Of a stretch of 64,000 nucleotides of DNA, positions 21,085 to 48,852 are shown piece after piece (the first letter of the stretch is position 1; each line of letters starts with the position of its first letter). Source of the stretch: a virus. Made by a program: the position numbers and the translations under genes. The notes under the pieces are model-generated. The model was not told the origin of the DNA. It made no database searches and worked only from the letters and a program-made list of their open reading frames with translations. The stretch spans positions 41,388 through 105,387 of IMG/VR virus record IMGVR_UViG_3300035670_000075. One strand, written 5' to 3'.

Positions 21085-21100
21085 GTATCGGATAATAACC

Positions 21101-21129
21101 TGTTTATTTTTGCAAGTCATTGTTATAAT
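21101..21129 (+). promoter_or_regulatory. Promoter of the plus-strand cargo island
   Basis: TATAAT at 21124-21129 within TGTTATAAT, 17 bases from a TGTTTA box at 21101-21106. It would drive the RHH-like gene at 21181 against the late transcript. Confidence 0.55.
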
Positions 21130-21180
21130 GGTAAAAATAGCCTGCTAGGTAGCTATGTATAAACTATAGAGGATTATGCG

Positions 21181-21402
21181 ATGACAGATTTGCCAGTAAA
21201 CGAAGATAAACCAGCGAAGCCAGTGACAGCAGAACAGCAGGTGGTGCAGCTTAATGTGCGCGTGCCGCTGCACATGAGAATAAAGCTGTCTGCGCTGTCA
21301 GAAATAAATGGCGTTGACATGCAGGAACTTGTGCAGCAGTGGATTGCAGAGAAGTTGATTGAAAGCGAGGACGAGGTGCGGAAGTTTTTAAGTTTTCGTT
21401 GA
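21181..21402 (+). CDS. Small RHH-like DNA-binding protein
   Basis: 73 residues. QVVQLNVRVPLHMRIKLSAL then GVDMQELVQQWIAEKLI has the strand-helix-helix pattern of ribbon-helix-helix (Arc-like) regulators. A TATAAT promoter lies 50 bases upstream. The gene points against the surrounding head operon, as phage cargo genes often do. The target is unknown; local control of the cassette island is possible. Confidence 0.6.
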   Translation: MTDLPVNEDKPAKPVTAEQQVVQLNVRVPLHMRIKLSALSEINGVDMQELVQQWIAEKLIESEDEVRKFLSFR

Positions 21403-21480
21403 TTTTTGTTGTGTTTATTTGTGTTAACGTGTAAACTATTGCTACTTGTTGCTTGATACAAAAAACAGGAGTGATCTGAT

Positions 21481-21849
21481 ATGGCAATGAACAAAACAGA
21501 AAAAGCTAAAATGCAAGAGCTTGAAGAGCAGATTCAGATTGCGCTGGCGCTACGCTGGACGGAAAAAGTGCTGCCTGACGTGGAAAAGCCCGAATCGTTT
21601 TCAAATAAAATAGCGAGAGGCTTTCTTTTCAACGCTTATACAGGTCAAGTAGATGAGATGTGGTCAGAATCTATACGCCACGGATATGCTACATCGCCTC
21701 AGCGCGGCTCTCAGGGCGGCATCAGCATGTACAGCACAAGGCTGTTGGCGTTAAAAGCGCTGCGCCACGCGGTAGAAGTGCGCAGTGCTGAGGCTCTGCG
21801 CGGCATTGATAAGAGAATTGCTGCTGAGTTGGCAGCGGATAATAAGTAA
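21481..21849 (+). CDS. Cargo-island protein of unknown function
   Basis: 122 residues; the ATG follows AGGAG by 9 bases; ATG at 21487 is an alternative. Mostly helical, with SIRHGYATSPQRGSQGGIS and a final Ala/Arg/Glu helix. It lies between the RHH-like gene and the first cassette boundary. The upstream gap holds GTTAACGTGTAAACT at about 21423, related to promoter-like words elsewhere in the window. No family is recognised. Confidence 0.55.
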   Translation: MAMNKTEKAKMQELEEQIQIALALRWTEKVLPDVEKPESFSNKIARGFLFNAYTGQVDEMWSESIRHGYATSPQRGSQGGISMYSTRLLALKALRHAVEVRSAEALRGIDKRIAAELAADNK

Positions 21850-21920
21850 AATATTTCTACTGGAGTCTAGGTTGCAATGGATACCATTCTTGTGTTGTGC
21901 ATCTTTATTTGTGGAACGGT

Positions 21921-21944
21921 GTCGGCTGTACCGCTAAGTTAGGG
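21921..21944 (+). repeat. Truncated attC site (right half only)
   Basis: GTCGGCTGTACCGCTAAG then GTTAGGG at 21938-21944 looks like the L' and R' boxes of the attC sites further right (compare GTCGGCCTTGACCGCCAAG-GTTAGGC at 40034). No matching left half is found upstream, so the site is probably decayed or cut. It marks the left end of a cassette. Confidence 0.5.
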
Positions 21945-21950
21945 GTTATT

Positions 21951-22133
21951 ATGAATGAGAAAGAGTTGCTTGAGATAATCAACGCATACAAAAACGATAT
22001 TTTATCCAACGATGGAGATAAAGCAGATCGTTTTTTAATGATGCTTGCAAAAGAAGTTGAACGTCAAACACGCCATAAAGCAGTGAAAATTGCTTACGAT
22101 ATGGCAGAGAAAATTAGCGATCTGAACTCCTAA
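21951..22133 (+). CDS. Integron-type cassette protein, unknown
   Basis: 60 residues from the ATG at 21951. The only ribosome-site candidate is the AGGGG that forms the end of the truncated attC. Helical and acidic (ELLEIINAYKNDILSNDGDK, MAEKISDL). Its stop codon lies in the left box (TAACGCC) of the next attC, the standard layout of an integron cassette. Function unknown. Confidence 0.6.
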   Translation: MNEKELLEIINAYKNDILSNDGDKADRFLMMLAKEVERQTRHKAVKIAYDMAEKISDLNS

Positions 22134-22226
22134 CGCCGAGCTAAGCCTACCGGTGCTGCCGGTCAACTTGAACCAAAACCGAAAAATCTCGGCGGCACCG
22201 GGTCGGCCTTGAGCGATAAGTTATGG
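22131..22226 (+). repeat. attC recombination site (complete)
   Basis: Left box TAACGCC at 22131, right box GTTATGG at 22220, and between them an imperfect long inverted repeat: GCCTACCGGTGCTGCCG pairs with the CGGCGGCACCGGGTCGGC side, with a central spacer. Length 96 bases is within the attC range. It separates two small cassette genes inside the phage head operon. Confidence 0.8.
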
Positions 22227-22420
22227 CAGATATTACAATGTGCATCAATCAAGCATGTGATATGCGTGAAGACTGCTATAGAGCAAAAGCGACACCTGCT
22301 GTTTTCCAAAGTTTGTGTTTTTTTGCTCCGATAAACGGTAATTGCGAGAATTATATTGAGTATAAGCAGCACACTAAAAAAGCAAAAAATACTGGTATTT
22401 GTAGCCATAACGCTTTATAG
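22223..22420 (+). CDS. Cysteine-rich small protein (cassette gene)
   Basis: 65 residues starting inside the attC right box (GTTATGGCAG). Cysteines occur in pairs: MCINQACDMREDCYR, SLCFFAPINGNCENY, then GICSH. The spacing resembles small cysteine-rich proteins common in phages and mobile elements, possibly zinc-binding. No attC follows it before the portal-side genes, so this is the last cassette of the island or its site has been lost. Confidence 0.6.
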   Translation: MADITMCINQACDMREDCYRAKATPAVFQSLCFFAPINGNCENYIEYKQHTKKAKNTGICSHNAL

Positions 22421-22498
22421 CCAGAAAAACTTCCGCCATATTAGATAATAGCCATTAAATACGGAGACAATGAATATTTTTTAGCTTGGTATGAAGCG

Positions 22499-22669
22499 CT
22501 ATGATTTACCTACAACAACAAGCTCACTCCACGCAACCCAATCAGCATCAAACACCATTCCATTGCCATCAACAACACCGACCAACGCCGACGTATTGAT
22601 ATTATCAACATCCTGCACATGCAGGATGTTACCGTTTCGCATGACATCCATGCCAATCTTAACCACCAC
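22499..22669 (-). CDS. Very small head-region protein
   Basis: 56 residues from a GTG at 22669 that overlaps the previous stop, with GGGG about 8 bases upstream; an ATG at 22651 gives 50 residues. Valine-rich beta sequence (GNILHVQDVDNINTSALVG, VFDADWVAWSELVV). It continues the packaging operon on the minus strand. Function unknown. Confidence 0.4.
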   Translation of the reverse strand: MVVKIGMDVMRNGNILHVQDVDNINTSALVGVVDGNGMVFDADWVAWSELVVVGKS

Positions 22670-22898
22670 TCGCAAACCCCGCGTAATTTCTAGCCTTCTC
22701 AGCCGCAAGCCTTTCAATCTGCTTGCGCCTACGCTCTGCTTCCAACTCCGCTGTCCCATCTGGCACAACCAAATAAGCTTGCTGCTTTACGTCATCCCAC
22801 ATCATCCTTGCGGGGTCGAATGCCGCTGGACTGATGGGGATTATCTTCTCGTTCTGCTTTGGTTGTCTGCCGATAACATCAGGAAAATCACTCGCCAT
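22659..22898 (-). CDS. Small head-region protein downstream of portal
   Basis: 79 residues; the ATG overlaps the end of the portal gene by 11 bases. Contains FDPARMMWDDVKQQAYLVVP and a charged helix (ELEAERRRKQIERLAAEK). Position between portal and head protease suggests an assembly or connector accessory. No family is recognised. Confidence 0.5.
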   Translation of the reverse strand: MASDFPDVIGRQPKQNEKIIPISPAAFDPARMMWDDVKQQAYLVVPDGTAELEAERRRKQIERLAAEKARNYAGFASGG

Positions 22899-24294
22899 TC
22901 AAATCTTCCTCTTCCACGTCGCTTTCGTTGTCATCGTCACTTACCGGATCGATTGAGTCATCCGTCATGTCATCTTCAGGCTGACTATCAACTGACGGAT
23001 CTTGTGGCGGCATTTCCACATCGCTTTCGCCACCGCCAATATCCTCGTAATCATCGCCGTAACGCTCGGCCACTGATTCCGGCTTCAACCTGTACCCCAT
23101 AGCGAACAACTCTTTATCGCGGGCAACGCGCTTGTCCTCGTCTTCAGTAGCAGAAATATCGAAGAAGATTTGCGGCACGCGGCGCAGGTCGCTGGTTCCG
23201 GTATTGAGCAACATCAGCATCGTCAACAATTGATGCCGAGTGGTTGGCTCGTATTGACGGAAATCTGAAACTGCCAAGTCCCACATTTCCGTGTTGCGCA
23301 TATCGCCACCGGAGAATACCCCAGTACGCTCCGCAAAAGCCTTTTCAGAACCAGTCAGCAGGCGGCGAGCCAGTGACCCAAACATATTGTACCAATTGAT
23401 GAAGCTTGCCGTTTGACCTTTTACCGCATCAAGCTCTTTGATGTTCATGCGCTCAGGCATAATGCCGTAAGCCTTTTCGATCATCATTGCCATTGCCGAC
23501 TTGAGTTTGCGCTGGTCGGTTTTCGATGTGCCTTCAGGGAATGTGGCGAACAGTTTTGGTATACCGTAATTGTGTAGGAACGCTTGTCCGTCGCCATGGG
23601 TTTCCATGCGCGATAACCACGCCCAAATCAGCGCCATGAACAAGCCTGACTCATGCGGATAGCCTGGCACTGCTTGGTGCTTATGCACGACCCATCCAAA
23701 CGGCCAAAATGGTTCGTCACCGCCAAGCCGTGTTTTGTAGCGCAACACGTTTTTGTTTTTACGCCACGGCGTCGCGACAGAGATATTGCGCTGCTGAAAT
23801 TCAGGAACCCACACGCCGTCGATTTTCTTCCACCCGCTGCCGCCTTCCTCGTCGGCAATTTCCATCAGCGAAAACCCGGCACCGATACCGGCAGACAAGC
23901 CAAGCAGATAGTCGTCGAAGTTTTTGATTTGCGCCAGGATGTCGCGCAAGATTTTTACGTTCTTTTTGTCTTCGCGCTTCGCCAGTCCACGGTCTACCAC
24001 AAATCCGTTTTCATCGCGGTAGCTGTCCCAGGTGTAAATGTCGAACGACACTGACAGCGGTGCGGTCGCCCGCATGTTAAAGCCCCACATGATGTCGGGG
24101 TCAAAGCGCAGCATCATCCACCACAGGCGGGATAATCTTGTCAGGTCGCCGTCATTGGCTTCGCCGATGATGTTGTAGATGTCGGTTGGGCGTAGATTAC
24201 GGTAAATCTCGCTGTAATCATTCTGCGCCAAACCGAATGAGATGGCTTCGCCGTCGCTTTCGGTTTGCGATTCTTTCAGTGCTTTAATCGCCAT
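22888..24294 (-). CDS. Portal protein (DUF935, Mu gp29-like)
   Basis: 468 residues from the ATG at 24294, just after the terminase stop. DPDIMWGFNMRATAPLSVSF, WVVHKHQAVPGYPHESG, FLHNYGIPKLFATFPEGTS and FSGGDMRNTEMWDLA follow the DUF935 portal family. The portal forms the dodecameric DNA gate at one capsid vertex. The last about 70 residues are very acidic. It is placed between large terminase and head protease as in Mu. Confidence 0.9.
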   Translation of the reverse strand: MAIKALKESQTESDGEAISFGLAQNDYSEIYRNLRPTDIYNIIGEANDGDLTRLSRLWWMMLRFDPDIMWGFNMRATAPLSVSFDIYTWDSYRDENGFVVDRGLAKREDKKNVKILRDILAQIKNFDDYLLGLSAGIGAGFSLMEIADEEGGSGWKKIDGVWVPEFQQRNISVATPWRKNKNVLRYKTRLGGDEPFWPFGWVVHKHQAVPGYPHESGLFMALIWAWLSRMETHGDGQAFLHNYGIPKLFATFPEGTSKTDQRKLKSAMAMMIEKAYGIMPERMNIKELDAVKGQTASFINWYNMFGSLARRLLTGSEKAFAERTGVFSGGDMRNTEMWDLAVSDFRQYEPTTRHQLLTMLMLLNTGTSDLRRVPQIFFDISATEDEDKRVARDKELFAMGYRLKPESVAERYGDDYEDIGGGESDVEMPPQDPSVDSQPEDDMTDDSIDPVSDDDNESDVEEEDLNGE

Positions 24295-24296
24295 TG

Positions 24297-25919
24297 CTAC
24301 CAATCCTCTTCTTCATATTCATCACCACCGACACCGCCAGTTACAGGTTCAAAGCCGTAATCTTCAAAACCAAGCCCAAGTTCCGACATGTACTTTAGCG
24401 CTTGCGTCATCGAATCAACTTGGTCTTTGAATTGACTCGACGGGAAATTCATCATTTCTTCCTCGAACAACGCCAGCCAAGGCGCATTTTCAGGCAGGAA
24501 AACATTTCCCGCGACGAACTGTGCGGAGATTGATTCTGCGCGCGCCAATTTATCTCCCTGCACATAAAACACGTTACCGCGTTCAACGCGGTTGTCGCTC
24601 GCCTTCTTTGCCACCGGCATCACCGGGACAATATTGAGTGACGGTCGCCGGTCTACACCGAGTTCGTTCAACATCAATCTCCATTCAGCCTCGCGCATTG
24701 AGCGCAGTTGCGAGATAAGTTCCGTCCCGTTTGCCTTGTCCTCAATTAAGATGGCGTCTGGCTTGAACGCATCGGCGCGGGTAATCACCGCCCGCAGCAA
24801 ATCAGAGAACTCGACGCGCTGCCGGTAAACGTCCAGTAGGTAATAGCCGTTGCGCGTTTTTGCCCACTCGGTACACACCGAATATGCGTTACCATCTTTT
24901 TTGCTTTTCGCCGTATCCCACGATGCAACACGCTGGATAATATCACCTATAGAGGATTGATTTCTATATCGCTTGATGTTTACCGCCTTAAATAATCCGC
25001 CACCACGCGGCACTGGACGCTGTTGATGCTGTGCGGCGTAGTTGTATGAACCGAGTTTTAGCTTCTGCCCGTCGATAAACTTGCGGTCGAAGCCGCGCTC
25101 CGGCCACAACAACTCGCCTTCCTGCGTGCGTGGGTCAATAAAGCCGAGCGGGTTGTGGATCATCACCTGCGGTTCGTACTCGGAGGGGATTTTTAGCACT
25201 ACCCAGTTATCCGGCGAGTTGTCCATGAGATATTGCGCAATATCGCGGGTATCGAGGCGCTGCATGATAAGTATTTTGGCGTGTTTTTGCGGGTTGTTGA
25301 TACTTGCTTCCCACGAATTGCGCCACCATTCCACGACATTATCAAAGTCGGCATTGCTGAGTTGACCGATTTTGCGCGAGTCCATGAGGTCGTCGGCAAC
25401 GTTGTAATCACCGCCGTTGCCAAGGATGCCAGAGCCTACCGAAGTGGCGTAGCGGAATCCGCTGTTGTCGTTTTCGTATTTTGACTTGGTATTCTGATCG
25501 CCTGTCAACACGAATTTGTCACCCCAGTAGCGTTGATACAGAGGTGACTGGATGATACGCCGCGAGTCAACGCTATCGCGCAAAGACAGACTGGCGCTGT
25601 GGCTGGCGTAGAGAAACTTGGAGGACGGTACTTTCGTCCACCACCAGGGCGTGAGGCACGCGGATGCCAGCAAAGACTTGGTGTGGCGGCGCGGGATGTT
25701 GATCATGAGGTTGGTAATCTCGAATCGCAGTGCGGCTTCGAGATGCTCACCCACAGCGTAGTGGTGCCAGTTCAACTGCAAGTCCTCGCCACGTACCGCT
25801 TGCCACATCACCCGCATGAACTCGACAAGACTGCGCTCAGCCAGTTCGCGAACGAGGATGTCGCGGTCGGTGCTGAGTAGTTTTTTGGCGAGCGGAGATA
25901 GTCTTGGTTGTTTTTGCAT
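24297..25919 (-). CDS. terL: Terminase large subunit
   Basis: 540 residues. The N-terminal ATPase has INIPRRHTKSLLAS as the Walker A-like adenine-binding loop and NVADDLMDSRK around Walker B. The C-terminal nuclease has ASWDTAKSKKDGNAYSVC, LIEDKANG and a final Asp/Ser segment near FKDQVDSMTQALKYM. These are typical of TerL with the RNase H-like domain (Terminase_6C). It cuts and pumps phage DNA into the procapsid. It is first gene of the late minus-strand operon, but its small subunit partner lies 15 kb away. Confidence 0.9.
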   Translation of the reverse strand: MQKQPRLSPLAKKLLSTDRDILVRELAERSLVEFMRVMWQAVRGEDLQLNWHHYAVGEHLEAALRFEITNLMINIPRRHTKSLLASACLTPWWWTKVPSSKFLYASHSASLSLRDSVDSRRIIQSPLYQRYWGDKFVLTGDQNTKSKYENDNSGFRYATSVGSGILGNGGDYNVADDLMDSRKIGQLSNADFDNVVEWWRNSWEASINNPQKHAKILIMQRLDTRDIAQYLMDNSPDNWVVLKIPSEYEPQVMIHNPLGFIDPRTQEGELLWPERGFDRKFIDGQKLKLGSYNYAAQHQQRPVPRGGGLFKAVNIKRYRNQSSIGDIIQRVASWDTAKSKKDGNAYSVCTEWAKTRNGYYLLDVYRQRVEFSDLLRAVITRADAFKPDAILIEDKANGTELISQLRSMREAEWRLMLNELGVDRRPSLNIVPVMPVAKKASDNRVERGNVFYVQGDKLARAESISAQFVAGNVFLPENAPWLALFEEEMMNFPSSQFKDQVDSMTQALKYMSELGLGFEDYGFEPVTGGVGGDEYEEEDW

Positions 25920-38640: not shown

Positions 38641-39477
38641 ATGTCTAACATCGCATGGACACAAAAAACACTAAACTCAGCGACAGGCTGCACCGAAACA
38701 TCGCCTGGTTGCAAATGGTGTTACGCTAAGCTTCTGATGGAGCAGAGACTTGCTAAAATGCCGCACTTGGAAAAGTACGCCGGACGAAAGTTTCATGACG
38801 TGCAGTTTCACGAAGAAGAACTGCAAACGCTTTACAAAACACGCAAGCCGACTGTGTTCTTCCTGAACAGCATGTCAGACACTCTTCATGAGCGATTTGG
38901 CGAGCACGAAATATTAAAGACGCTGATCGCAATAGCAGATAACCCGCGCCATACTGTACAAGTTCTTACGAAGCGCGCTGAGCGCATAGAGCTTCTTGAG
39001 TCTGTATGGAGAAACCACGCTGGCGACAAATTGCCACGCAACATATGGCTTGGTGTAACCGTTGAAAATGCTGATTACATTGGCAGGATAGAGCATCTTC
39101 GCAACTCTAGCGCTGCCGTGAAATTTATATCGCTTGAGCCGCTGCTTAGCGATATACCGAACGTCGATTTAAGCGGGATTGATTGGGCGATTGTCGGCGG
39201 AGAGTCTGGACGCAAAGCCCGTGCAATGCATCCGAATTGGGTGCGCAATATCTTGCGCCAGTGCCGCGAGAATAACGTAGCATTCTTCTTCAAACAATGG
39301 GGAACTTACGCGCCAATAATCGGTGATCATATCAATCCTGGTGCGTGTAAAAAAACGCCTATCCATCTCGCACACGGTCATGCGTTTGAGAAAATGCGGA
39401 CGCCGAGATATGCTGTTTTGGATGGTGTTGTTTTGCAGGAGTATCCAAGGCATAGTGAGGAAAAGTTATCATGCTGA
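38641..39477 (+). CDS. DUF5131 (phage Gp37/Gp68) radical-SAM-like protein
   Basis: 278 residues. SNIAWTQKTLNSATGCTE then SPGCKWCYAK gives the three-Cys set of DUF5131 proteins, related to radical SAM enzymes. TVFFLNSMSDTLHE, VLTKRAERI, NIWLGVTVENADY, FISLEPLL and VGGESGRKARAM are family segments. Often encoded in phages; a role in nucleic-acid modification or repair is suspected but unproven. Confidence 0.88.
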   Translation: MSNIAWTQKTLNSATGCTETSPGCKWCYAKLLMEQRLAKMPHLEKYAGRKFHDVQFHEEELQTLYKTRKPTVFFLNSMSDTLHERFGEHEILKTLIAIADNPRHTVQVLTKRAERIELLESVWRNHAGDKLPRNIWLGVTVENADYIGRIEHLRNSSAAVKFISLEPLLSDIPNVDLSGIDWAIVGGESGRKARAMHPNWVRNILRQCRENNVAFFFKQWGTYAPIIGDHINPGACKKTPIHLAHGHAFEKMRTPRYAVLDGVVLQEYPRHSEEKLSC

Positions 39478-39732
39478 ATTTGGATGACATGACCATAAGA
39501 TGAATCAGTAACAGAAATTCTTGAATATCGCTCACCGTGGAAAACAAAGCGAGCGGTAAAAAAAAAAGGCAAGTGGCTAAGCCGTCATGAGAAGCGCCCG
39601 CCGAGCGCTTGAAATTGCCACATCGGTACGAAGCATCACTGGCTCCAATAGGCAAAGGCGTCTTGAAATGCCGGTGTGTTGCGGTTCGATTCCGTGACTG
39701 TGCTTTTTTTATAGCTATAAGAAGTCAGCAAA
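39478..39732 (+). other. Structured non-coding stretch with tRNA-like end
   Basis: No gene. At about 39582-39635 a multibranched fold is possible (GGCAA/TTGCC, GGCT/AGCC, AAGCGC/GCGCTT). At 39632-39704 a tRNA-like unit follows: a CTTGAAA loop as in tRNA-Ser(UGA) anticodon loops, GGTTCGATTCC as the T arm, an acceptor with about 5 pairs (AGCAT side), and a run of T. Stems are too poor for a working tRNA, so it may be a decayed tRNA. Confidence 0.4.
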
Positions 39733-39936: not shown

Positions 39937-39939
39937 AGA

Positions 39940-40034
39940 TAACGCCCGAACTCAGGCGACCATTGCCGCCTATGAGCTTTAATTAACCAATTTAAACCGG
40001 CGGCAATGGGTCGGCCTTGACCGCCAAGTTAGGC
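39940..40034 (+). repeat. attC site 1
   Basis: TAACGCC at 39940 and GTTAGGC at 40028. The stem GGCGACCATTGCCGCC pairs with GGCGGCAATGGGTC with one extra G, the unpaired base expected in attC folds. 95 bases. Confidence 0.85.
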
Positions 40035-40053
40035 TTTTGCCTTTAGGATACAT

Positions 40054-40299
40054 ATGAACACAGACGATATAATGAATGAATCTGAGAAGCTTACAGAGGA
40101 ACTTGTAAAATATCTAGCAAAACGTAAAACAAACCGCGCAGTTGCGATCACGTCATTAGTAGATTGCTGCGTTTTTATCGCTACCGAGTCGAAAGATGAA
40201 AAAGTCATTTTCACAATACTTGATATGATTCATAAAAGAGTAGACTCAATTGCCAATGAGCTTTTTGCAGAGCGTAGCATATGGAAAGTTAAAGCCTAA
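40054..40299 (+). CDS. Cassette protein 2, unknown
   Basis: 81 residues; AGGA before the ATG. Helical (EKLTEELVKYLAKRKTNRAV, IFTILDMIHKRVDSIANELF). The stop lies in GCCTAAC, a typical left box, but instead of a full attC a hairpin follows (40308-40348). The sequence resembles short helical regulators, but no family is recognised. Confidence 0.55.
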   Translation: MNTDDIMNESEKLTEELVKYLAKRKTNRAVAITSLVDCCVFIATESKDEKVIFTILDMIHKRVDSIANELFAERSIWKVKA

Positions 40300-40352
40300 C
40301 TTGTAGATAGGCAGAATGTTGAATAACTGTTATTTAACATTCTGCCTATTAC
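40297..40352. repeat. Hairpin repeat, copy 1 (second copy at 45821-45875)
   Basis: TAACTTGTA followed by a perfect 13-bp stem, TAGGCAGAATGTT (40308-40320) with AACATTCTGCCTA (40336-40348). It lies between convergent genes and can act as a two-way terminator. The same about 50 bases recur in the same orientation at 45821. Confidence 0.7.
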
Positions 40353-40354
40353 CA

Positions 40355-40915
40355 TCACTGCAACGTCACATCATCAGCACCAAGTCTATCTTGGATGCCT
40401 ATTAACAAAGCCAATTCATCCTGGCTCAACTGCTTCACAAGCTCGCGTTCGTCTTTGACTTTCAACTCACCACTAACTTCAGACCTGCTATCTACGCTAA
40501 GCCTGTCGAAGCGCCCAAACTCATCGCGGTAACGTCGCTCCAACAGCCATGCAATCGGTTGCCACGGTGGAGGCGCGGCTTTCTGAATGACCTCGCGGCT
40601 GAGTAGGTTGCCGTCTGCGTCGTAGCGGCGCTTTTCTTCTATAATCACTTGCTTCTGCGTTGAAGCGTCTAGCATCTTTCTAAGCAGGCTTTTCTTGTAC
40701 TCAAGCTTTGCTTTTTTTATAGTCTCTGAAAACTCCGAAAACACAGGAGACTTTCTTTCATCTCCGCTTTTCATCCAATCATAAAAAGCAGCTTCACTAA
40801 CGCCAGCAGCAGTGCAAGCATCTGCATTTGAAAGCCCTGCCTTAAAAGCCTCCACCAGTATCGCTATAATGTCAGGCGTGAATACCCTCTTCCGCCCGGT
40901 CTTACTCTTCGCCAC
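40355..40915 (-). CDS. Terminase small subunit-like protein
   Basis: 186 residues. A helix-turn-helix at the N-terminus (VFTPDIIAILVEAFKAG, ADACTAAGVSEAAFYDWM) is followed by charged helices and a final acidic helix, the usual plan of phage small terminase subunits that recognise the packaging site. It overlaps the ParB-like gene by 14 bases. Unusually it is about 15 kb from the large subunit and on the other side of the early operon. Confidence 0.65.
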   Translation of the reverse strand: MAKSKTGRKRVFTPDIIAILVEAFKAGLSNADACTAAGVSEAAFYDWMKSGDERKSPVFSEFSETIKKAKLEYKKSLLRKMLDASTQKQVIIEEKRRYDADGNLLSREVIQKAAPPPWQPIAWLLERRYRDEFGRFDRLSVDSRSEVSGELKVKDERELVKQLSQDELALLIGIQDRLGADDVTLQ

Positions 40916-41579
40916 TTTGTCTCACCACCTTCTTTCTCTTCTGCACATCGGGGTAGCGCAGAATAATTCCATCTAATTCAGTTTCAAATGCCAGCAAGTC
41001 ATCCATTGGTACACTGACTGTTATCTTAGCAACTTGCTCCATATTGTCGCCGCCACCATCGCCACCGAAGTCATTGCCATCACCGCCGAAGCCATCACCA
41101 AATCCGCTGTTTTGCAAACTCGCAAACAACGCGCCAGTGTCAACTTCAAGTGCCTTCAGTGCATCGGAAAAGCCAGCCTCCAACGCACTCAAGTCCCACT
41201 CGCCACTCACACCTGGTAGTGGGTTGTCGAGCAGTAAGATTTGCTCCTCTTGCGCCGGGGTCAGCCCGCTGCACACAACGGCTGGAGCGTGAGTAACACC
41301 CATGTACAGCACAGCATCGACACGCAAATGCCCGGCGCACGACATCAACTTGCCAGTCCTATCTGACAATATCGGCAATCGATTCATAAACAACTCAGGA
41401 GACTGTTTAATCCCCTCTGCGAGATTATGAATCTCTACCTTGCCGTACTTGCGCGGATTGGCGCTGCCATTGACAGATGTATAGGGGACTATCTCTCTGT
41501 AATCAACCGTCAGCAACTCGCACTTGGCGGAAGCGGTTATTACGTCCAAAAGCTGTTTTTCTGTTTTTTGCTGCGACAT
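40902..41579 (-). CDS. ParB-like nuclease-domain protein
   Basis: 225 residues. DYREIVPYTSVNGSANPRKYGKVEIHNLAEGIKQ, then ILSDRTGKLMSCAGHLRVDAVLYMGV have the order of the ParB N-terminal domain ('G.rR..A....g' becomes GHLRVDA). Phage versions sit before terminase genes and may mark or nick DNA. A Gly/Asp-rich linker (about 158-175) and a small C-terminal domain follow. Reads away from a control region with repeated GTTTACA. Confidence 0.65.
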   Translation of the reverse strand: MSQQKTEKQLLDVITASAKCELLTVDYREIVPYTSVNGSANPRKYGKVEIHNLAEGIKQSPELFMNRLPILSDRTGKLMSCAGHLRVDAVLYMGVTHAPAVVCSGLTPAQEEQILLLDNPLPGVSGEWDLSALEAGFSDALKALEVDTGALFASLQNSGFGDGFGGDGNDFGGDGGGDNMEQVAKITVSVPMDDLLAFETELDGIILRYPDVQKRKKVVRQSGEE

Positions 41580-41667
41580 CTTGCGTTAACGCCGTTGTTT
41601 GTTTACAATATGTTTACATAATCTAATATAGATAGATTATACACAGAATTCACACAGGATAACAAAG
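41580..41667. promoter_or_regulatory. Divergent control region with repressor-like half sites
   Basis: TGCGTTAAC at 41582-41590 matches the half site of the operator at 55738. Two GTTTACA direct repeats at 41601 and 41612 are one helical turn apart. It separates the ParB-like and Cas4-like genes. Confidence 0.5.
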
Positions 41668-43173
41668 ATGGGCGGCAGCATAATCACCAAAACCATGTTC
41701 ATGTCAGGCGTGCAATGCACGCTAAAACTATGGCACGAACAGCATGCCGACAGCAGAGAACCGCCGTCAGAAAGCACGCTGCGCGCAATGGCAGAAGGCA
41801 ATGAAGTCGGCGCACTGGCGCGTGCGCAATATCCTGGCGGCGTATTTATCGCCGAAACAAACTACGAAGCCGCTGCCGCTGCGACGCGCGAGGCATACGA
41901 AAACGGCGCGTCGGTAATCTACGAAGCGGCATTTTTGGTAGATGATATGTACGCCAAAGTCGATATTTTGCATATCGACGAGGAAGGCAACGCAACCATC
42001 ATTGAAGTAAAAGCCACTACGTCGGTAAAACCTGAGCATCTTCCAGACGTAGGCTTCCAATGGCACGTTGTCGTAGCGTCTGGTATCAACGTGACTAACG
42101 TATACCTGATGATTCTCGACGACACCAAGCTGTGTCCGTCTGATAACTACTTCAAACTGGAAGATGTCGCAGAGAAAGCGCAAATCTGGAAAGACGCTGC
42201 ACAGTCAAAATCGGTTGCGCTGATGAAAACAGCCAATCAAGCAACACAGCCAACACAACAAATAGGATCACACTGCAACACGCCGTATGACTGCCAATTC
42301 ACCGATAAATGTTGGGCGCATGTACCTGATGAGAATAGCATATTTACAATCCCATTCCTGCGTGGGAGAAAAAAACAAGACCTGATCGACGCAGGAATAT
42401 TCCATATCAACCACTTGCCAACTGAATTTGAGGCAACTGCGGCGCAACAGGTGTGGATTGATGTGGCAACCAGTGGCAAGCCAATCGTCAACATTGCCGG
42501 AATCAAAGACGAGCTATCGCAACTGGAATACCCGCTGGCTCACTTCGATTTTGAGACAATGGCATACGCCATCCCAAGATTTGCCGGGATGAAGCCGTAT
42601 CAGCAGTTCCCATTCCAATTTTCACTGCATGTGCAGAGAAAAAATGGGAAAATAACCCATCAAGAATATTTACATGTCACTCGCGACGACCCGCGAAAAC
42701 ACATTGCAGAAGCCATGCTTGCTTCTATTCCAGACGGCGGACATATCATCACCTGGAACAAACATTTCGAGTCTGGACGCATCATGGAAATGGCAGCGTG
42801 GCTGGAGTCAACCGGAGAAATCTCAAAAGCCAACCAGATGCGCAAGTTCAACGACCGCCTGTGGGACTTGGCTGAGATATTCCGCATCAAAGGCACTGGC
42901 GAAGTGCTGTGGCTGCACCCCGACATGCAGGGGCGCTACAGTATCAAATATGTTCTTCCAGTGATTGCGCCGCACTTGAGCTACAAGGGCATGAAAGTCG
43001 CCAAGGGCGATGAAGCAATGAACGCCTGGGCAAAGCTGATCATGCTTCCAGACGGCAGCGCCGAGAAGCAGGAATTGACATCGGCATTGCTTGCATACTG
43101 CAAGCAGGACACATACGCGATGGTGGTTATTTTGGATTATCTGTGGAGTCTTGTATGGAAAAGCGGTTTGTAG
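41668..43173 (+). CDS. DUF2779-type protein: Cas4-like nuclease plus DEDD exonuclease domain
   Basis: 501 residues. The N-terminal part has a PD-(D/E)XK core (YAKVDILHIDEEG, ATIIEVKATTS) and cysteines (Cys17 in GVQCTLKLWH, then CNTPYDCQFTDKCW), which fit a Cas4/AddB iron-sulphur nuclease. The C-terminal part starts HFDFETMAYAIPRF, a DEDD exonuclease-like motif of DUF2779, with HIITWNKHFESGR and YSIKYVLPVIAPHLSY further on. Probably a DNA end-processing enzyme in recombination or repair. Confidence 0.8.
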   Translation: MGGSIITKTMFMSGVQCTLKLWHEQHADSREPPSESTLRAMAEGNEVGALARAQYPGGVFIAETNYEAAAAATREAYENGASVIYEAAFLVDDMYAKVDILHIDEEGNATIIEVKATTSVKPEHLPDVGFQWHVVVASGINVTNVYLMILDDTKLCPSDNYFKLEDVAEKAQIWKDAAQSKSVALMKTANQATQPTQQIGSHCNTPYDCQFTDKCWAHVPDENSIFTIPFLRGRKKQDLIDAGIFHINHLPTEFEATAAQQVWIDVATSGKPIVNIAGIKDELSQLEYPLAHFDFETMAYAIPRFAGMKPYQQFPFQFSLHVQRKNGKITHQEYLHVTRDDPRKHIAEAMLASIPDGGHIITWNKHFESGRIMEMAAWLESTGEISKANQMRKFNDRLWDLAEIFRIKGTGEVLWLHPDMQGRYSIKYVLPVIAPHLSYKGMKVAKGDEAMNAWAKLIMLPDGSAEKQELTSALLAYCKQDTYAMVVILDYLWSLVWKSGL

Positions 43174-43397
43174 TAACTAAAGGCAACGGGACATTCAAAG
43201 CTGGCGATAGAATAGTCTTTTACAAAAATGGGGACATAGGTTGCGCACAGGCTGGTGGATGGGTTGATAATAAGGACGCAGAAGAAGCTACAAAAGGTAT
43301 GGAATACAGACCTGATGTTGAGTTTGCGAAAAAGAAGATTAAACGCCTATCGGAAGAGATTGCAGAGTTGCGCAGAGAATATGGTGTTACTGAATAA
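43155..43397 (+). CDS. Small protein with coiled-coil end, unknown
   Basis: 80 residues from the ATG at 43155, overlapping the end of the nuclease gene. A beta-rich first half (RFVVTKGNGTFKAGDRIVFY, GDIGCAQAGGWV) resembles SH3-like folds. The last 25 residues are a charged helix. Function unknown. Confidence 0.5.
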   Translation: MEKRFVVTKGNGTFKAGDRIVFYKNGDIGCAQAGGWVDNKDAEEATKGMEYRPDVEFAKKKIKRLSEEIAELRREYGVTE

Positions 43398-43423
43398 TGT
43401 TATTTTCCTTTGGAGTGAAAAAC

Positions 43424-43657
43424 ATGCTTACGACTGTTAGGGCTAGAGTTTGCAGAGTTGGTGAATGGGCAGTGTTCCGCACAAAACAGCATGGATTGGT
43501 CATGCAAATGGGCGACGGTTATATGAAAGCGCCTCTGCAAAAAAAGAATATGTTTAAGTTAAATATCAGCGGTAATACGCCATGCCTGGTAAGGTCGCGA
43601 TGCGATATTAAAACTAACGCCAAAGCTCAGGCGACAACCGCCGTCTGTGAACCATAA
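43424..43657 (+). CDS. Cassette protein, unknown
   Basis: 77 residues from the ATG at 43424 with GGAG 8 bases upstream. Beta pattern RVGEWAVFRTKQHGLVMQMGDG. The frame runs into the attC site, so the last about 13 residues (NAKAQATTAVCEP) are encoded by the recombination site itself, common for integron cassettes. Its left boundary is not marked by an attC. Confidence 0.5.
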   Translation: MLTTVRARVCRVGEWAVFRTKQHGLVMQMGDGYMKAPLQKKNMFKLNISGNTPCLVRSRCDIKTNAKAQATTAVCEP

Positions 43658-43708
43658 ACAACCAAAAAGCCTAACGGCAGCGGGTCGCGCTCAAGTGTGA
43701 AGTTAGGC
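43614..43708 (+). repeat. attC site 2
   Basis: CTAACGCC at 43614 and GTTAGGC at 43702. The AAAGCTCAGGCGAC side pairs imperfectly with GTCGCGCTCAAGTGTG, and GCCGTC with GGCAGC around a long spacer. Confidence 0.75.
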
Positions 43709-43722
43709 TGTGGAGATAAGCC

Positions 43723-44010
43723 ATGACTGAGATTGTAAAAGGAATGAAAATTACGCCTTGGGGTACTAAAGATAACCCTCTTATGCAGGGAATGTTTGTT
43801 GGTTGCGTACAATGGGCGATTGGTGATAAAGATATAGTTGAATCGTTCAAGAAAGATACAGGTAATGACCTGAACTCGTTAAGATTTTCAGGTATTGATG
43901 GAATGATTGATGAAGCTACAGGAAGGGCTGGAGAGATGTTTGCAGCCTTTGCGGATTATGTGGCTGAAAATATCTGGGGTGATGAAAACTCGGATATTGA
44001 TGCAGCCTAA
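43723..44010 (+). CDS. Cassette protein 3, unknown
   Basis: 95 residues; GGAG 8 bases upstream. Aromatic and acidic, with KITPWGTKDNPLMQGMFVGC, QWAIGDKDIVESFKKDTGND and a helical end. The stop lies in the next attC left box. No family is recognised. Confidence 0.55.
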   Translation: MTEIVKGMKITPWGTKDNPLMQGMFVGCVQWAIGDKDIVESFKKDTGNDLNSLRFSGIDGMIDEATGRAGEMFAAFADYVAENIWGDENSDIDAA

Positions 44011-44103
44011 CGCCAGAATTAACCCGACATGCGCCGCCAATTAACTAAAACCAAGTCATAAAAGCCCGACGGCGCATGGTCGGACTTGATGGCAAAGTTA
44101 TAC
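44005..44103 (+). repeat. attC site 3
   Basis: GCCTAAC at 44005 and GTTATAC at 44097. CCCGACATGCGCCG pairs with CGGCGCATGGTCGG with one extra base; about 99 bases. Confidence 0.8.
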
Positions 44104-44112
44104 GGAGACTAT

Positions 44113-44418
44113 ATGAGCAAGCAACAATGGGGACATGGATACCACCGTGGTTTTAATAAAGGATACGCAAAGGCGAAGCGCGAAGAGGAAACAAAGCGCG
44201 CTTTCAAAGAAAATAAACATGCTCATTGGGTTGAGATTACTCATTACGGAAGCGAAGGCGTTGAGCCAAAAGACCGCATGTTATGCGGTGATGTTGGTGG
44301 TAGCTGTATAAGCGGAAGCGGTGAAAGCATATGTGCTGGCTATCGCGGTGAAAATGAAACAGGTACACATGTGATATGCGCTGAAAAACCAAGAGCGTAT
44401 AAGCATGATTCCGTATAA
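44113..44418 (+). CDS. Cassette protein 4, unknown
   Basis: 101 residues; GGAG upstream of the ATG. Basic N-terminus (GHGYHRGFNKGYAKAKREEE), and later MLCGDVGGSCISGSGESIC with three close cysteines. Its stop is in the next attC left box. Function unknown. Confidence 0.55.
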   Translation: MSKQQWGHGYHRGFNKGYAKAKREEETKRAFKENKHAHWVEITHYGSEGVEPKDRMLCGDVGGSCISGSGESICAGYRGENETGTHVICAEKPRAYKHDSV

Positions 44419-44511
44419 CGCCAGAACTCAGGCGACCATTGCCGCCTGCAAACTTAAACTTTAGCCAGTTCACTCCGGCGGCAATGGGTCGCCTGGAGTG
44501 ACAAGTTATAT
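44414..44511 (+). repeat. attC site 4
   Basis: TAACGCC at 44416 and GTTATAT at 44505. Its stem GGCGACCATTGCCGCC/GGCGGCAATGGGTC is the same as in attC site 1, so the two are closely related. Confidence 0.85.
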
Positions 44512-44524
44512 TGAGGTAACAAAT

Positions 44525-44794
44525 ATGATTAAAAATCTCAGAAATGATTTTATTGAACTGATGTCAGAGTCATATGTAAAAATGCCAAGGCACGACAGAA
44601 TATGTCTGCTCCATGCAATGGACGCACCTGACAATAACCCAGCGACAGGGCTGCCATTTCAAACAGTAGGCGAACTGTTTGGTTCAATGAGTGACGAATC
44701 TTTGGCAACAGTCTATCGCGATATGCGTGATAACGAATTATTAGCAAGTCGGGACAGCTACAGAAAATATGAAGAAGCCATTAAAAATTTGTGA
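44525..44794 (+). CDS. Cassette protein 5, unknown
   Basis: 89 residues; GAGG upstream. Helical (IKNLRNDFIELMSESYVKMP, ICLLHAMDAPDNNPATG, LATVYRDMRDNELLASR). Ends just before attC site 5. No family is recognised. Confidence 0.55.
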   Translation: MIKNLRNDFIELMSESYVKMPRHDRICLLHAMDAPDNNPATGLPFQTVGELFGSMSDESLATVYRDMRDNELLASRDSYRKYEEAIKNL

Positions 44795-44795
44795 A

Positions 44796-44898
44796 TATAA
44801 CGCCAAAGCTCACGCGACCAATACCGCCCGCGATGAGCTTTAATCCGGCACTAAATTTTGTGGGCGGTATTGGGTCGCCGTGGAGCGTAAAGTTAGGT
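44796..44898 (+). repeat. attC site 5
   Basis: TAACGCC at 44798 and GTTAGGT at 44892. GCGACCAATACCGCCC pairs with GGGCGGTATTGGGTCGC with one extra G. Confidence 0.85.
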
Positions 44899-44903
44899 GC
44901 TTA

Positions 44904-45059
44904 ATGAATAAGAATATGAGAGCGGTAGCAAGGAAATCATGCTGGATGGCTAATGGTTTTTTCGGTTCAAACCGCAAAGAAGCCGTTCAAAAAGCAATAG
45001 AAAACGGAGTTAAACCCGAAAACATAAAAGCTAAAAAAGTATATCCATCTGGCAAATGA
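44904..45059 (+). CDS. Cassette protein 6, very small
   Basis: 51 residues, basic: NKNMRAVARKSCWMANGFFG, SNRKEAVQKAIENGVKPEN and a Lys-rich end. The ATG lies 5 bases after the attC right box, and the stop precedes attC site 6. The size is small but the cassette layout supports it. Function unknown. Confidence 0.5.
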   Translation: MNKNMRAVARKSCWMANGFFGSNRKEAVQKAIENGVKPENIKAKKVYPSGK

Positions 45060-45067
45060 ATTTTACA

Positions 45068-45164
45068 CCTAACGCCTGAGCTAAGCCGCGCTGCGCCGCG
45101 ATGAACTTTATATTAACCTGCTCAAGCCCGACGGCGCAGCGTCGGCTTGAGCGCAAAGTTAGAG
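45068..45164 (+). repeat. attC site 6
   Basis: CCTAACG at 45068 and GTTAGAG at 45158. CTGAGCTAAGCCG pairs with CGGCTTGAGCG and GCTGCGCCG with CGGCGCAGC. A textbook site. Confidence 0.88.
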
Positions 45165-45170
45165 GTTGAC

Positions 45171-45305
45171 ATGGATAGAATCAAGGTAACAAAAGATTGC
45201 ATTAAAGTATATGAGCAGCAAAAAGGTTCAAAAGAATCTTCTTACTTATCAAGAAGAAGACTTCTAATTTCTTTGAAATCGTCATCATCAAGAAAGAAAA
45301 ACTGA
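45171..45305 (+). CDS. Short cassette gene 7, probably cut by the GNAT gene
   Basis: 44 residues: MDRIKVTKDCIKVYEQQKGS, then a Ser/Arg-rich tail whose codons are antisense to the end of the GNAT gene. The first half looks coding; the second looks accidental. No attC follows. Probably a cassette truncated when the reverse-oriented GNAT DNA arrived. Confidence 0.35.
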   Translation: MDRIKVTKDCIKVYEQQKGSKESSYLSRRRLLISLKSSSSRKKN

Positions 45306-45811
45306 CATGATTTTGATTTCTTTTTATTTGACATAATCGTTAATCCTTTATATATGCTTAACGATTGTGTCTTTTTGGCATCTGCACTTGATAATATGCT
45401 AACTTTATTAAATCCGTTTTTTTCAAAAAAATGTTCTTTACCAATTGAAGATATGAAACATATAGGAGAGAATCTTTCTTTCACTGTGCTAAGCACAAGA
45501 CTACCAATACCTTCCATTCTGTATTTTTCTTCAACATATATGCGATGTAGATAGAATTTATCTCCAGGAAAATGAATAACCATAGCATAAGATATTGGGT
45601 TTCCTTCATAAAGGTAAGCTATGATTTTCAAATTACCAACACGAAATAACTCTTTAAATATATTTGATATATAATTTAAAGCATTATCATAATTTATGTT
45701 TTTATCAATTGATAGCCCAATAATCATTGGAGTTATAAGAGCATCCTGAAGCATTATCTCCGATTCTATTTTTATTATCTGGTTTATATCTGATTGACTA
45801 AGCTCACTCAT
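45242..45811 (-). CDS. GNAT acetyltransferase-like protein
   Basis: 189 residues. FYLHRIYVEEKYRMEGIGSLVLS is the acetyl-CoA-binding motif A of the GNAT fold, and the EHFFEKNGFNKVS segment the C-terminal strand. The DNA is much more AT-rich than its neighbours. On its own strand GTTAGAGG lies just before the start, the same box that ends attC sites, so it may be a cassette inserted backwards. The acceptor is unknown; toxin or drug targets are possible. Confidence 0.7.
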   Translation of the reverse strand: MSELSQSDINQIIKIESEIMLQDALITPMIIGLSIDKNINYDNALNYISNIFKELFRVGNLKIIAYLYEGNPISYAMVIHFPGDKFYLHRIYVEEKYRMEGIGSLVLSTVKERFSPICFISSIGKEHFFEKNGFNKVSILSSADAKKTQSLSIYKGLTIMSNKKKSKSCQFFFLDDDDFKEIRSLLLDK

Positions 45812-45820
45812 ATTTACCTC

Positions 45821-45875
45821 TAACTTGTAACTAGGCAGAATGTTAAATAACTGTTATTCAACATTCTGTATAATA
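45821..45875. repeat. Hairpin repeat, copy 2
   Basis: Same order as copy 1: TAACTTGTA, then CTAGGCAGAATGTT (45831) and AACATTCTG (45860). Here it lies upstream of two divergent genes, so it is not simply a terminator. Confidence 0.65.
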
Positions 45876-45880
45876 CAACC

Positions 45881-46207
45881 ATGTCACAATCATTCCTATC
45901 AGCCAACGCCAGGGCGCAGCGCAGGCACAAAGCCAAACGCGCTGCGCTAGGCTTCTCTCAGCTTAATTTCTGGATTCACGAAAAAGACCGTGACATTCTG
46001 GCTTCGGCACTGAAAAAATACAACGCTGACAAGCTTGAAACGCTGGAGCGGCGCATGAGCTTAATCATTCGTGTCGCCAACGACGAAACTGAAATAACAC
46101 TGCACGAAGCATCAGAAATACAACAAAAGATGTTTCCAGAAAATAAACCGCTACCAATAAAAAAAACATGGTGGCAGAAAACCAAAGCATGGCTTGGCGT
46201 TAACTAA
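45881..46207 (+). CDS. Small basic protein, unknown
   Basis: 108 residues. Basic N-terminus (ARAQRRHKAKRAALGFS), then QLNFWIHEKDRDILASAL, which has a strand-helix look of RHH proteins, and a Trp/Lys-rich end. It lies between the hairpin repeat and the recombinase gene. DNA binding is likely from composition; no family is named. Confidence 0.5.
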   Translation: MSQSFLSANARAQRRHKAKRAALGFSQLNFWIHEKDRDILASALKKYNADKLETLERRMSLIIRVANDETEITLHEASEIQQKMFPENKPLPIKKTWWQKTKAWLGVN

Positions 46208-46310
46208 CAATTTTAACGCGCAAGTCATTGATTAAGATAGTATATTACTAGACATAGCACGCAAAATAATTTACATTATTTTATATGTATTATTTTTATA
46301 GTTGACACAG

Positions 46311-47387
46311 ATGGAAACTGAAGATTTAGAAGAAAATCATGAATCGGATACGCGCGAAAGACTTCTCAAGAAATACGCCGCAAAATCCATACGGAAAAAG
46401 ACGCGGCAAGACTACGAATCAAGACTTAGGCTTTATCAAGCGTCAGGTAGAAAACTTCCAGCAACTGACGTTGAAATCGTAGAATACATCGAATCGGCAA
46501 AAGTCATGTCGCGTAAGAAAAACGGCGAATACATTACCAAAGACAGCTTGCTTGCTGTGTCATCAGTCCAATCAATAGTTGCTGCTTTGTCGTGGTGGCA
46601 TCAAGAAAATAACCACCAAGACCACACAAATAGCGCGCTGGTTAAAAAAGCCATTGCAGCAATCAAGCGCGAACGCGCAAAACCGCAAGCGCAAGCGCGA
46701 GCAATAAAAACTGAAGAAATTGCAGCAATCACTGAAACGCTACTCGAACTACAAACAACCCAAAATGCCGCAGACAATCTCCGCGCAATCCGCGATCTGG
46801 CTTTTATCCTCGCGCTGTTTTACACCGGGTGCAGAGAAAGCGAAATCCGTCACCTCAGAGTTGATGATCTGGAGTTTACAGATGACGGTCTAATCGTAAA
46901 AATCAGAAAGTCAAAAACAGACGACGGAACTGGAAGAAACACGCCAATCCCATACCGCGATGCTAACGGACAAAAAATACTCGCGGCATACGCGATCTCT
47001 GATTGGATTGAAAAGGCTGGAATAAAGTCTGGCTTCGTATTCAGAACAGTAGACCAATACGCTGTCGTCGGTCGTGGGAAAAAGCCGCTAGACTATGGGT
47101 TTTCTTCACGGACACTACTCAAATACGCAGAGATGTCAGGCGTATCAATAGACGGAATCAGCACACACTCATTCAGAGCCGGGTGCGCAACAGCACTAAA
47201 TTTAAGCGGCGCAGGTATTGCCGAGATAGCGCAGCACTTAGGTCATCGCTCAACGGCGTCAACGATGAAATACTTACGCGCCGACGCATCAACCAGACTT
47301 AAAGACGCACCAACACGGAAAATTGCGCAGCCAAAGAAAACTTTTACGCAGATAGTTTTCACGTTTATTGCACGTTTATTTTCGTGA
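46311..47387 (+). CDS. Tyrosine recombinase (not IntI type)
   Basis: 358 residues from the ATG at 46311; a TTG at 46302 is possible. Core residues: Arg in GCRESEIRHL, His-x-x-Arg in HSFRAGCATAL, Gly-His in HLGHRS and the Tyr nucleophile in STMKYLRA. The N-terminal domain is a SAM-like fold typical of core-binding domains. The extra helix and motifs of integron integrases are not seen. It points toward the tmRNA-like attachment site. It may be a second integrase or a resolvase of the element. Confidence 0.8.
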   Translation: METEDLEENHESDTRERLLKKYAAKSIRKKTRQDYESRLRLYQASGRKLPATDVEIVEYIESAKVMSRKKNGEYITKDSLLAVSSVQSIVAALSWWHQENNHQDHTNSALVKKAIAAIKRERAKPQAQARAIKTEEIAAITETLLELQTTQNAADNLRAIRDLAFILALFYTGCRESEIRHLRVDDLEFTDDGLIVKIRKSKTDDGTGRNTPIPYRDANGQKILAAYAISDWIEKAGIKSGFVFRTVDQYAVVGRGKKPLDYGFSSRTLLKYAEMSGVSIDGISTHSFRAGCATALNLSGAGIAEIAQHLGHRSTASTMKYLRADASTRLKDAPTRKIAQPKKTFTQIVFTFIARLFS

Positions 47388-47531: not shown

Positions 47532-48668
47532 TCACGATTTTTGCACGTCGAGTGATTCCAGCATGGCTTTGAATTTGTCTCCGGCGTTGGGTGCTGCGGT
47601 TGGCATCCAGCGCGCGTAGAATTTGCGGATCATTGCCCAGTCAGAGTGTCCCATCACGCTTGCGATCCATGCCGGGTTTTCGCCAGCGGTGAGCATCATG
47701 CAGGCGAATGTGTGGCGGGTTTGATAGGGGTAGCGGTAGCGTACTCCGGCGCGCTTCAGAGTTGGACGCCAGACGAATTCCCGTATAGTTTTGTCGTTGC
47801 TGTACGGTTTGTTGGTTTTGGGGTCGAAGAAGATTTGTGCGGCGTGGTGGTAGGTGTGTGATTTTTGTGCAATCACGGCTTCTAACGCGGGGTCGAACAA
47901 GGGGACTTCGCGGCGGCCTGATTTGGTTTTTGGTTCTTTGGTGATTTTGCGTGATTGACTGAGGCGGATGAATACGCGGCGGTTGGGTTCGTCAAAGTCT
48001 TCCCACCGTAGCGCTAGGAGTTCGCCTGTGCGTAGTCCGGTGAAGAAGGCGAAGCGGATGAGGTTGCGGTGTTGTTCGTACTCGCAGGCGGCGAGGATTT
48101 GTTGAATCTCTTGCGGGGTGAATGGATCGGGTTCTTGCGTGGTGGTTTTGAGGTTTTTGATTTTGTCGGCTGGATTGCGTTCAATGGTGCCGTCAATGTA
48201 GGCGTCTTCGAGCATTCCGCGCAGCGGGATCATGATGTTGTTGATGCGCTTGTTGCTGATGACCAGTCCGGCGATCCAGTCTTTGATGTGGGCTGTTTTG
48301 AGGTCTTTGAGCTTGATATGACCGAACTGAGTTTTCAGGTGGTGATCAATCGCGCTTTGGTAATCGCGGATCGTGGTGTGTGATTTGCCGTGGCTGTTGT
48401 TTCGCAGCCAGGCGTCCAGCGCCTCGGCAATGGTTATTGCGGTAGGCGCGTAGTCGTCGAATAGGGTTGCGCGTTTTGAGTTGGGGAAATGTTTGCGGTA
48501 GCTGAATGTGCCTACTGCTATTTCATGCTCGATGGCAGCGGCAAGACGCTCGCCGTGTTTTCTATTGGTCAGCGTGTCTTTCAGGCGCAGGCTCTCGCGG
48601 CATTGCACGCCGTTGAGGACGAACCCGATCCACAGCCTGTCGCCGTCTCTTGTGTAGATTTTCGCCAT
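47532..48668 (-). CDS. int: Phage integrase (tyrosine recombinase)
   Basis: 378 residues from the ATG at 48668. The N-terminus (AKIYTRDGDRLWIGFVLNG) is the arm-type DUF3596 domain. The catalytic part has TGLRTGELLALRW, YQTRHTFACMM, MGHSDWAMIRKFYARW. The first His of box II is Tyr, as in this family. It overlaps the excisionase gene by about 107 bases, the usual int-xis layout, and its stop faces the attachment site. Confidence 0.9.
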   Translation of the reverse strand: MAKIYTRDGDRLWIGFVLNGVQCRESLRLKDTLTNRKHGERLAAAIEHEIAVGTFSYRKHFPNSKRATLFDDYAPTAITIAEALDAWLRNNSHGKSHTTIRDYQSAIDHHLKTQFGHIKLKDLKTAHIKDWIAGLVISNKRINNIMIPLRGMLEDAYIDGTIERNPADKIKNLKTTTQEPDPFTPQEIQQILAACEYEQHRNLIRFAFFTGLRTGELLALRWEDFDEPNRRVFIRLSQSRKITKEPKTKSGRREVPLFDPALEAVIAQKSHTYHHAAQIFFDPKTNKPYSNDKTIREFVWRPTLKRAGVRYRYPYQTRHTFACMMLTAGENPAWIASVMGHSDWAMIRKFYARWMPTAAPNAGDKFKAMLESLDVQKS

Positions 48669-48852
48669 GTGCGCTGGTATTTCCCCACATCCAGTTACGA
48701 ATCGCATCTAAATCATACACGATTCGTTTGCCGTCAGGGGCTTTTTTCCAATGCACGCCTTCCAGCCAATGCCCAAGTCGGCGATGAGACTCTTGGGATT
48801 TTTGGCTGTAGCCTGTTTCGCGCGCCAATACGTCACCGAGTACCGGCGTCAT
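48562..48852 (-). CDS. xis: Excisionase-like protein
   Basis: 96 residues from the ATG at 48852 (GGAG 8 bases upstream). LGDVLARETGYSQKSQESHR, LGHWLEGVHWKKAPDGKRIV and YDLDAIRNWMWG have the winged-helix pattern of phage excisionases that bend attachment-site DNA. The start overlaps the preceding stop (ATGA), and the body overlaps int. Family inferred from size, position and motif. Confidence 0.65.
   Translation of the reverse strand: MTPVLGDVLARETGYSQKSQESHRRLGHWLEGVHWKKAPDGKRIVYDLDAIRNWMWGNTSAHGENLHKRRRQAVDRVRPQRRAMPREPAPERHADQ

Follow-up and report, generated by a model that had tools for sequence, protein, structure and literature searches.

Integrase-less clusters of attC sites have already been described in phages, where 17 CALINs were reported (Qi et al. 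2023, PMC9892861); when six attC sites from other phages were assayed with IntI1, five proved active (PMC9892861). The cluster of phage TJE1 is bordered by a hairpin with GTTRRRY, and off-target recombination was suggested (Qi et al., PMC9892861). Furthermore, IntI inserts cassettes at attG, a G|TT target distinct from both attI and attC (Loot et al. 2024, as cited in passages of PMC12901181 and PMC12444791), and according to the passages of PMC12444791 that deal with attG, such insertions are scattered across many E. coli loci.

Here, we analysed a window of 64,000 nucleotides (positions 41388-105387 of a virus record 105,387 bases long), in which three cassette clusters with one, five and two cassettes, eight in total, lie within a phage genome. 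By definition the element is a phage CALIN, a kind known since 2023; the first-pass annotation correctly took the clusters to be phage-borne, while its remark that such clusters are rarely described is superseded by the published CALINs (PMC9892861). Like those of Tetrasphaera phage TJE1, Pseudoalteromonas phage H101/PH101 and Polaribacter phage P12002L (PMC9892861), the element combines attC clusters with small unknown genes in a tailed phage with no nearby integrase, and as in TJE1 a cluster abuts a GTTRRRY hairpin (PMC9892861). It differs from these phage CALINs (PMC9892861) in its seven sites at three loci, one of them in the structural module, and in an entry hairpin that is repeated at two arrays. 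Moreover, its genes are mostly inverted with respect to attC, whereas the weak matches of our covariance model R2 (described below) to TJE1 have the normal orientation. We found no description, in the literature examined, of a single phage with multiple such loci, of a recurring entry hairpin or of mostly inverted genes, and consider these the less usual features of the element.

In their stem, boxes and extrahelical bases the sites resemble class 1 or Xanthomonadales-type attC sites (aadA1, aadA2, cmlA1; PMC8352920), which R2 likewise finds. In contrast to class 1 sites, they have longer loops (~97-104 bases versus 62 bases for aadA1), are not accompanied by resistance genes and carry the gene on the other strand. 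Compared with attG as presented in the passages cited above, the target here belongs to a phage, and both copies of a repeated hairpin appear to have served. A bacterial array in a Giesbergeria MAG (L016, NZ_JAQUCA010000049.1) contains one attC that is 70-77% identical to the phage sites and scores 105.7 bits with our model R1, close to the values of the phage sites themselves; some of its genes are inverted as well, but it is located on a bacterial contig with its own IntI. One inverted cassette gene of this array (1396-1665, plus strand) is similar to Ead/Ea22-like proteins of phages (PHROG E 4e-7; the Pfam match stays below the cut-off) and, judged by this resemblance, is perhaps a phage gene turned cassette. 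A full-site attC pattern, which does match in the window, was found in none of 2.9 million viral contigs. A shorter pattern matched three viral contigs, none of them with a model match, and 44 bacterial contigs, among which only L016 had model-confirmed sites in the stretch fetched.

The attC sites and their phage setting

The element is an uncultivated tailed phage for which neither INPHARED nor IMG/VR offered a close relative: a DNA search of INPHARED and a search of IMG/VR with three proteins revealed no relatives, and a search with the large terminase subunit (TerL) yielded distant matches only (<37% identity). The genes for the head protease (19615-21120), the portal (22888-24303) and TerL (24297-25919) form a minus-strand block (19615-25919) that encloses one cassette cluster, array C (21938-22411). 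The gene for the small terminase subunit (TerS, 40355-40915, minus strand) and ParB-like genes (together 40355-41579, minus strand) separate the other two, array A (40028-40300) and array B (43619-45824). The arrays are thus surrounded and separated by phage genes. The window further encodes two tyrosine recombinases, a ribonucleotide reductase and a thymidylate synthase. The TerS and TerL genes are ~14 kb apart, which is unusual for tailed phages. Ahead of array A we noted a tRNA-like stretch (39555-39710) with the T-arm motif GGTTCGATTCC, for which ARAGORN calls no tRNA, and a DUF5131 gene (38641-39477) with strong matches to the PADLOC candidate families PDC-M41B and PDC-M30B (E ~1e-76) and a weak match to radical SAM mobile pair protein A.

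The first-pass annotation had listed six attC sites, at 39940, 43614, 44005, 44414, 44796 and 45068. A covariance model built from these six (R1) assigned 99-119 bits to all of them and revealed a seventh site, absent from that list, at 22120-22244 (80 bits, E ~1e-19); R1 gave no attC match in the 41 kb of the record outside the window. For a second model (R2) we used 35 matches, all from bacterial genomes and including some duplicates. Attention had been drawn beforehand to attC models scoring none of the six as evidence against the claim; R2 scored all six. On the 105-kb record it recovered exactly the seven phage sites on the plus strand (34.8-66.7 bits, E 6e-6 to 1e-13) and otherwise gave only two weak matches, which mirror a4 and a6 on the reverse strand. 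Annotated class 1 plasmid attC sites, used as a control, score about 56-72 bits with R2, and this control weighs most because the rows of R2 were first picked by R1. Individually, and all with minus-strand canonical polarity, the sites are a1 (39937-40034; R1 106 bits, R2 35.5 bits), a2 (43612-43708; 99 and 34.8 bits), a3 (44005-44103; 111 and 48.8 bits), a4 (44413-44511; 119 and 56.8 bits), a5 (44795-44898; 104 and 51.5 bits), a6 (45067-45164; 104 and 66.7 bits) and a7 (22128-22226; 80 and 44.4 bits), the last located between the head-protease and portal genes. In addition, the R''-L'' half of a truncated attC (21912-21944, minus strand) gave no full model match; its R'' pairs with the start of cassette c8.

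The sites also display the structural hallmarks of attC. R'' and R' boxes (RYYYAAC / GTTRRRY type) are present at both ends and are complementary within each cassette, and the imperfect stem has its extrahelical bases confined to one arm. Both-side, that is compensatory, changes occur in 11 of 25 modelled pairs. Pair covariation amounts to 0.324 versus 0.126 in shuffles, with none of 500 shuffles as high, and is destroyed by sliding the partner. A strict attC pattern matches five times in the window and not once in 100 shuffles. Rfam contains no family that matches at threshold; a weak mir-31 match (40298-40359) corresponds to the palindrome described below. By several sequence-based tests the six reported sites and the seventh are thus confirmed as genuine attC sites, and the earlier proposal that they stem from one lineage is supported.

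Polarity and closure of the cassettes

The gene of a normal cassette reads into R''-L'', the 5' arm, which also bears the extrahelical bases. In a plasmid class 1 array the genes are on the plus strand and the R2 matches on the minus strand. In the window the R2 matches are on the plus strand, the strand of the open reading frames, and the extra bases are found on the plus-strand 3' arm; the canonical attC direction is therefore the minus strand. Three bacterial arrays (G001, G003 and G137) concur, with R1 matches on the intI strand and intI facing away from the array. Hence, the polarity is minus although seven of the eight cassette genes are on the plus strand, and it follows that the genes are mostly inverted in their cassettes and that the sites at 39940 and 43614 go with the cassettes to their right, the reverse of the gene-to-site assignment made at first.

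The closure of the cassettes was examined by delimiting eight units at the recombination points and comparing the first and last bases of each. In all eight, start and end are reverse complements over 6-10 bases, and the pairing of each start with its own end is the unique maximum among 40,320 permutations of starts to ends. Read on the minus strand, everything closes. Array A consists of one cassette, c1, with site a1, its ends pairing over 10 bases. Array B comprises five cassettes, in minus (canonical) order GNAT, c6, c5, c4 and c3 with sites a6, a5, a4, a3 and a2, all of them R2 sites, a2 marking the distal end; their own ends pair over 8-10 bases. Array C comprises c9 with a7, and c8 with the truncated site. 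Read on the plus strand, no cassette start occurs within 4 kb of a1 or a2, and the two units ending in a hairpin lack an R' box. The genes to the left of these two sites therefore belong to the phage and are not the cassettes they had been taken to be. Left of array B these are two small backbone genes (43155-43397 and from 43397, together 43155-43610, plus strand), the first of which shares 45% identity with a homologue in phage MW202423. Moreover, ~3.3 kb of phage genes lie between the first site and the second, so that the single array proposed initially resolves into three places of insertion. All cassettes in arrays A and B are complete, whereas array C has ragged edges and one truncated attC (c8). 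Five attC sites (a2-a6) are found within 1.6 kb, whereas two neighbouring sites suffice for a CALIN. The GC content of the arrays is 0.40-0.41 (cassettes 0.28-0.45, GNAT 0.28) versus 0.47-0.49 in the flanking phage DNA, which counts for a foreign origin.

The plus-strand reading frames c1 (40054-40299, 81 aa), c3 (43723-44010, 95 aa), c4 (44113-44418, 101 aa), c5 (44525-44794, 89 aa), c6 (44904-45059, 51 aa), c8 (21951-22133) and c9 (22223-22420) fill their units. Most of them start 12-26 bases past GTT; a Shine-Dalgarno-like motif (GGAG or GAGG) accompanies several starts, and in four cases the stop is inside the R'' box. The only gene in normal orientation encodes a GNAT acetyltransferase (45242-45811, minus strand; PF13508 E 5e-7, phrog_10454 E 2e-22) and starts a few bases past ACAAG|TTAGAGG. 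c3 matches phrog_5692, of unknown function (E 3e-5), and c9 likewise matches a phage family of unknown function; c4, c5 and c6 match no family. The share of inverted genes, 7 of 8 here versus 5 of 27 clear cassettes in reference arrays (4 from a plasmid and 23 from bacterial loci), differs with p 0.0008 in a post hoc comparison by the longest-ORF rule. The cassette proteins gave no match in plasmids, the proteins of the cassette regions gave a single match in phages, to the backbone gene left of array B, and neither plasmids nor phages yielded an identical cassette. PADLOC detected no clear defence gene among the cassettes.

The entry hairpin and the neighbouring recombinases

Arrays A and B, read on the minus strand, begin after two copies of one ~50-base palindrome, located at 40301-40350 (copy A) and 45825-45870 (copy B), both on the minus strand, and with the sequence CAGAATGTTRAATAACAGTTATTYAACATTCTGCCTAnnTACAAG|TTAG. 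The copies agree through TACAAGTTAG / GTTAG and diverge immediately after. Because all cassettes begin with TTA, divergence at exactly this point is what insertion at G|TT predicts. When the flanks of the two empty sites were joined, their likeness beyond GTTA was not significant (p 0.69). The hairpin is absent from array C, and we found the palindrome neither elsewhere in the record nor in 2.9 million viral contigs, nor in 369 genomes of one class or in plasmids. Measured against attI, a hairpin with ACAAG|TTAG heads two arrays but has no intI alongside. We also considered the hairpins as truncated attC sites of plus-strand cassettes; this idea was dropped, as the attC polarity contradicts it and two sites would be left without a cassette.

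In line with the first-pass annotation, we detected no integron integrase: in the 105-kb record, which is linear and may be incomplete, nothing matches TIGR02249 above its cut-off. An intI gene with the IntI-specific insertion, the mark of a complete integron, is thus lacking. The two tyrosine recombinases, which had rightly been assigned to other types, reach 28-31 bits versus a cut-off of 265. One is a phage integrase with an Arm-DNA-binding domain (47532-48707, minus strand). The other (46302-47387, plus strand, 361 aa) is Cre-like, its closest solved sequences being Cre (E ~1e-6), and lacks the IntI-specific insertion, that is, the stretch present at that place in the IntI of L016. Between hairpin B and this recombinase lies a small reading frame (45881-46207) for which no family was found. 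A distant homologue of the Cre-like recombinase adjoins two attC sites of normal orientation in a bacterial locus (L094; G353:C2, ~272 kb), in a genome with IntI on another contig. From its position, the hairpin may be a site of the neighbouring Cre-like recombinase, which would not exclude its foot from serving as a cassette target.

Routes of cassette entry

We consider it probable that a host integron integrase put the cassettes into attG- or attI-like sites at the hairpin foot of a phage that lacks IntI. During infection or lysogeny, the host enzyme would recombine cassettes, by the folded attC strand, into the phage genome, the targets being double-stranded attG/attI-like ACAAG|TTA at the foot of a hairpin present twice. 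Repeated insertion at one hairpin copy would have given rise to the five cassettes of array B, and array C would represent one further such insertion site in the structural module. The orientation of entry would be set by the site; since phage transcription there presumably runs on the plus strand, cassettes with inverted genes would be those expressed and kept. As to which enzyme acted, where the cassettes came from and why inverted genes were retained, this is the most likely interpretation of the observed sites, polarity and closed units. All eight bacterial genomes matched by R1 carry a full-length IntI, versus a base rate of 138 of 369 genomes in the class, and we regard this co-occurrence as support rather than proof. 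As searches of INPHARED and IMG/VR revealed no relative with an empty site, the insertion was not directly seen.

An unlikely, though still the next best, explanation holds that the arrays were acquired when the phage recombined, homologously or illegitimately, with a host integron at hairpins in which GTTRRRY occurs fortuitously, with no action of IntI on the phage. This route was proposed by Qi et al. for TJE1, whose cluster edge has a terminator hairpin with an inverted GTTRRRY, and the truncated attC of c8 and the ragged edges of array C fit it. The same route leaves unaccounted for that two separate arrays stop matching at the same point, G|TTAG, and that all cassettes of A and B are complete, as such events would seldom do so twice.

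That the Cre-like recombinase itself handles the cassettes, so that hairpin, recombinase and array B would form a non-canonical phage integron, appears highly improbable. The recombinase lacks the insertion needed to read folded attC, scores 28 bits against the TIGR02249 cut-off of 265 and has Cre as its closest solved relatives. Furthermore, only one of 20 bacterial homologue loci adjoins attC sites, and array A has no adjacent recombinase. What remains in its favour is the integron-like layout, with the recombinase transcribed away from the hairpin and the cassettes on the opposite side, and the small reading frame in between, which sits like cra in lox-cra-cre of P1. Host chromosome or a metagenome mis-assembly is equally hard to credit: an uncultivated contig without close relatives might invite this suspicion, but phage structural genes flank and separate the arrays, array C lies between protease and portal, and false joins would be needed separately at three loci.

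If, as we favour, a host integrase inserted the cassettes, the same sites should allow host IntI to excise them again, and the phage would move cassettes between integrons; the earlier suggestion that the phage may serve as a vehicle for cassettes is plausible. A more far-reaching and quite doubtful version is that the phage keeps its own cassette docking sites: the twice-present hairpin foot would substitute for attI and be served by host-supplied IntI, amounting to an integron in trans, with inverted genes expressed by phage transcription and cassettes shuttled between bacterial integrons.

Integron cassettes are, according to literature cited in passages of PMC12444791, a main accessory-gene store of bacteria and include many anti-phage systems. 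The inverted genes raise the question of how cassettes are selected, or made, inside a foreign transcription unit. The analysis provides the exact junction sequence, which can be tested with IntI1. Taken together, three sites of cassette uptake, two of which lie at hairpins of one kind, suggest that cassette traffic genuinely reaches phage genomes and is carried by them.
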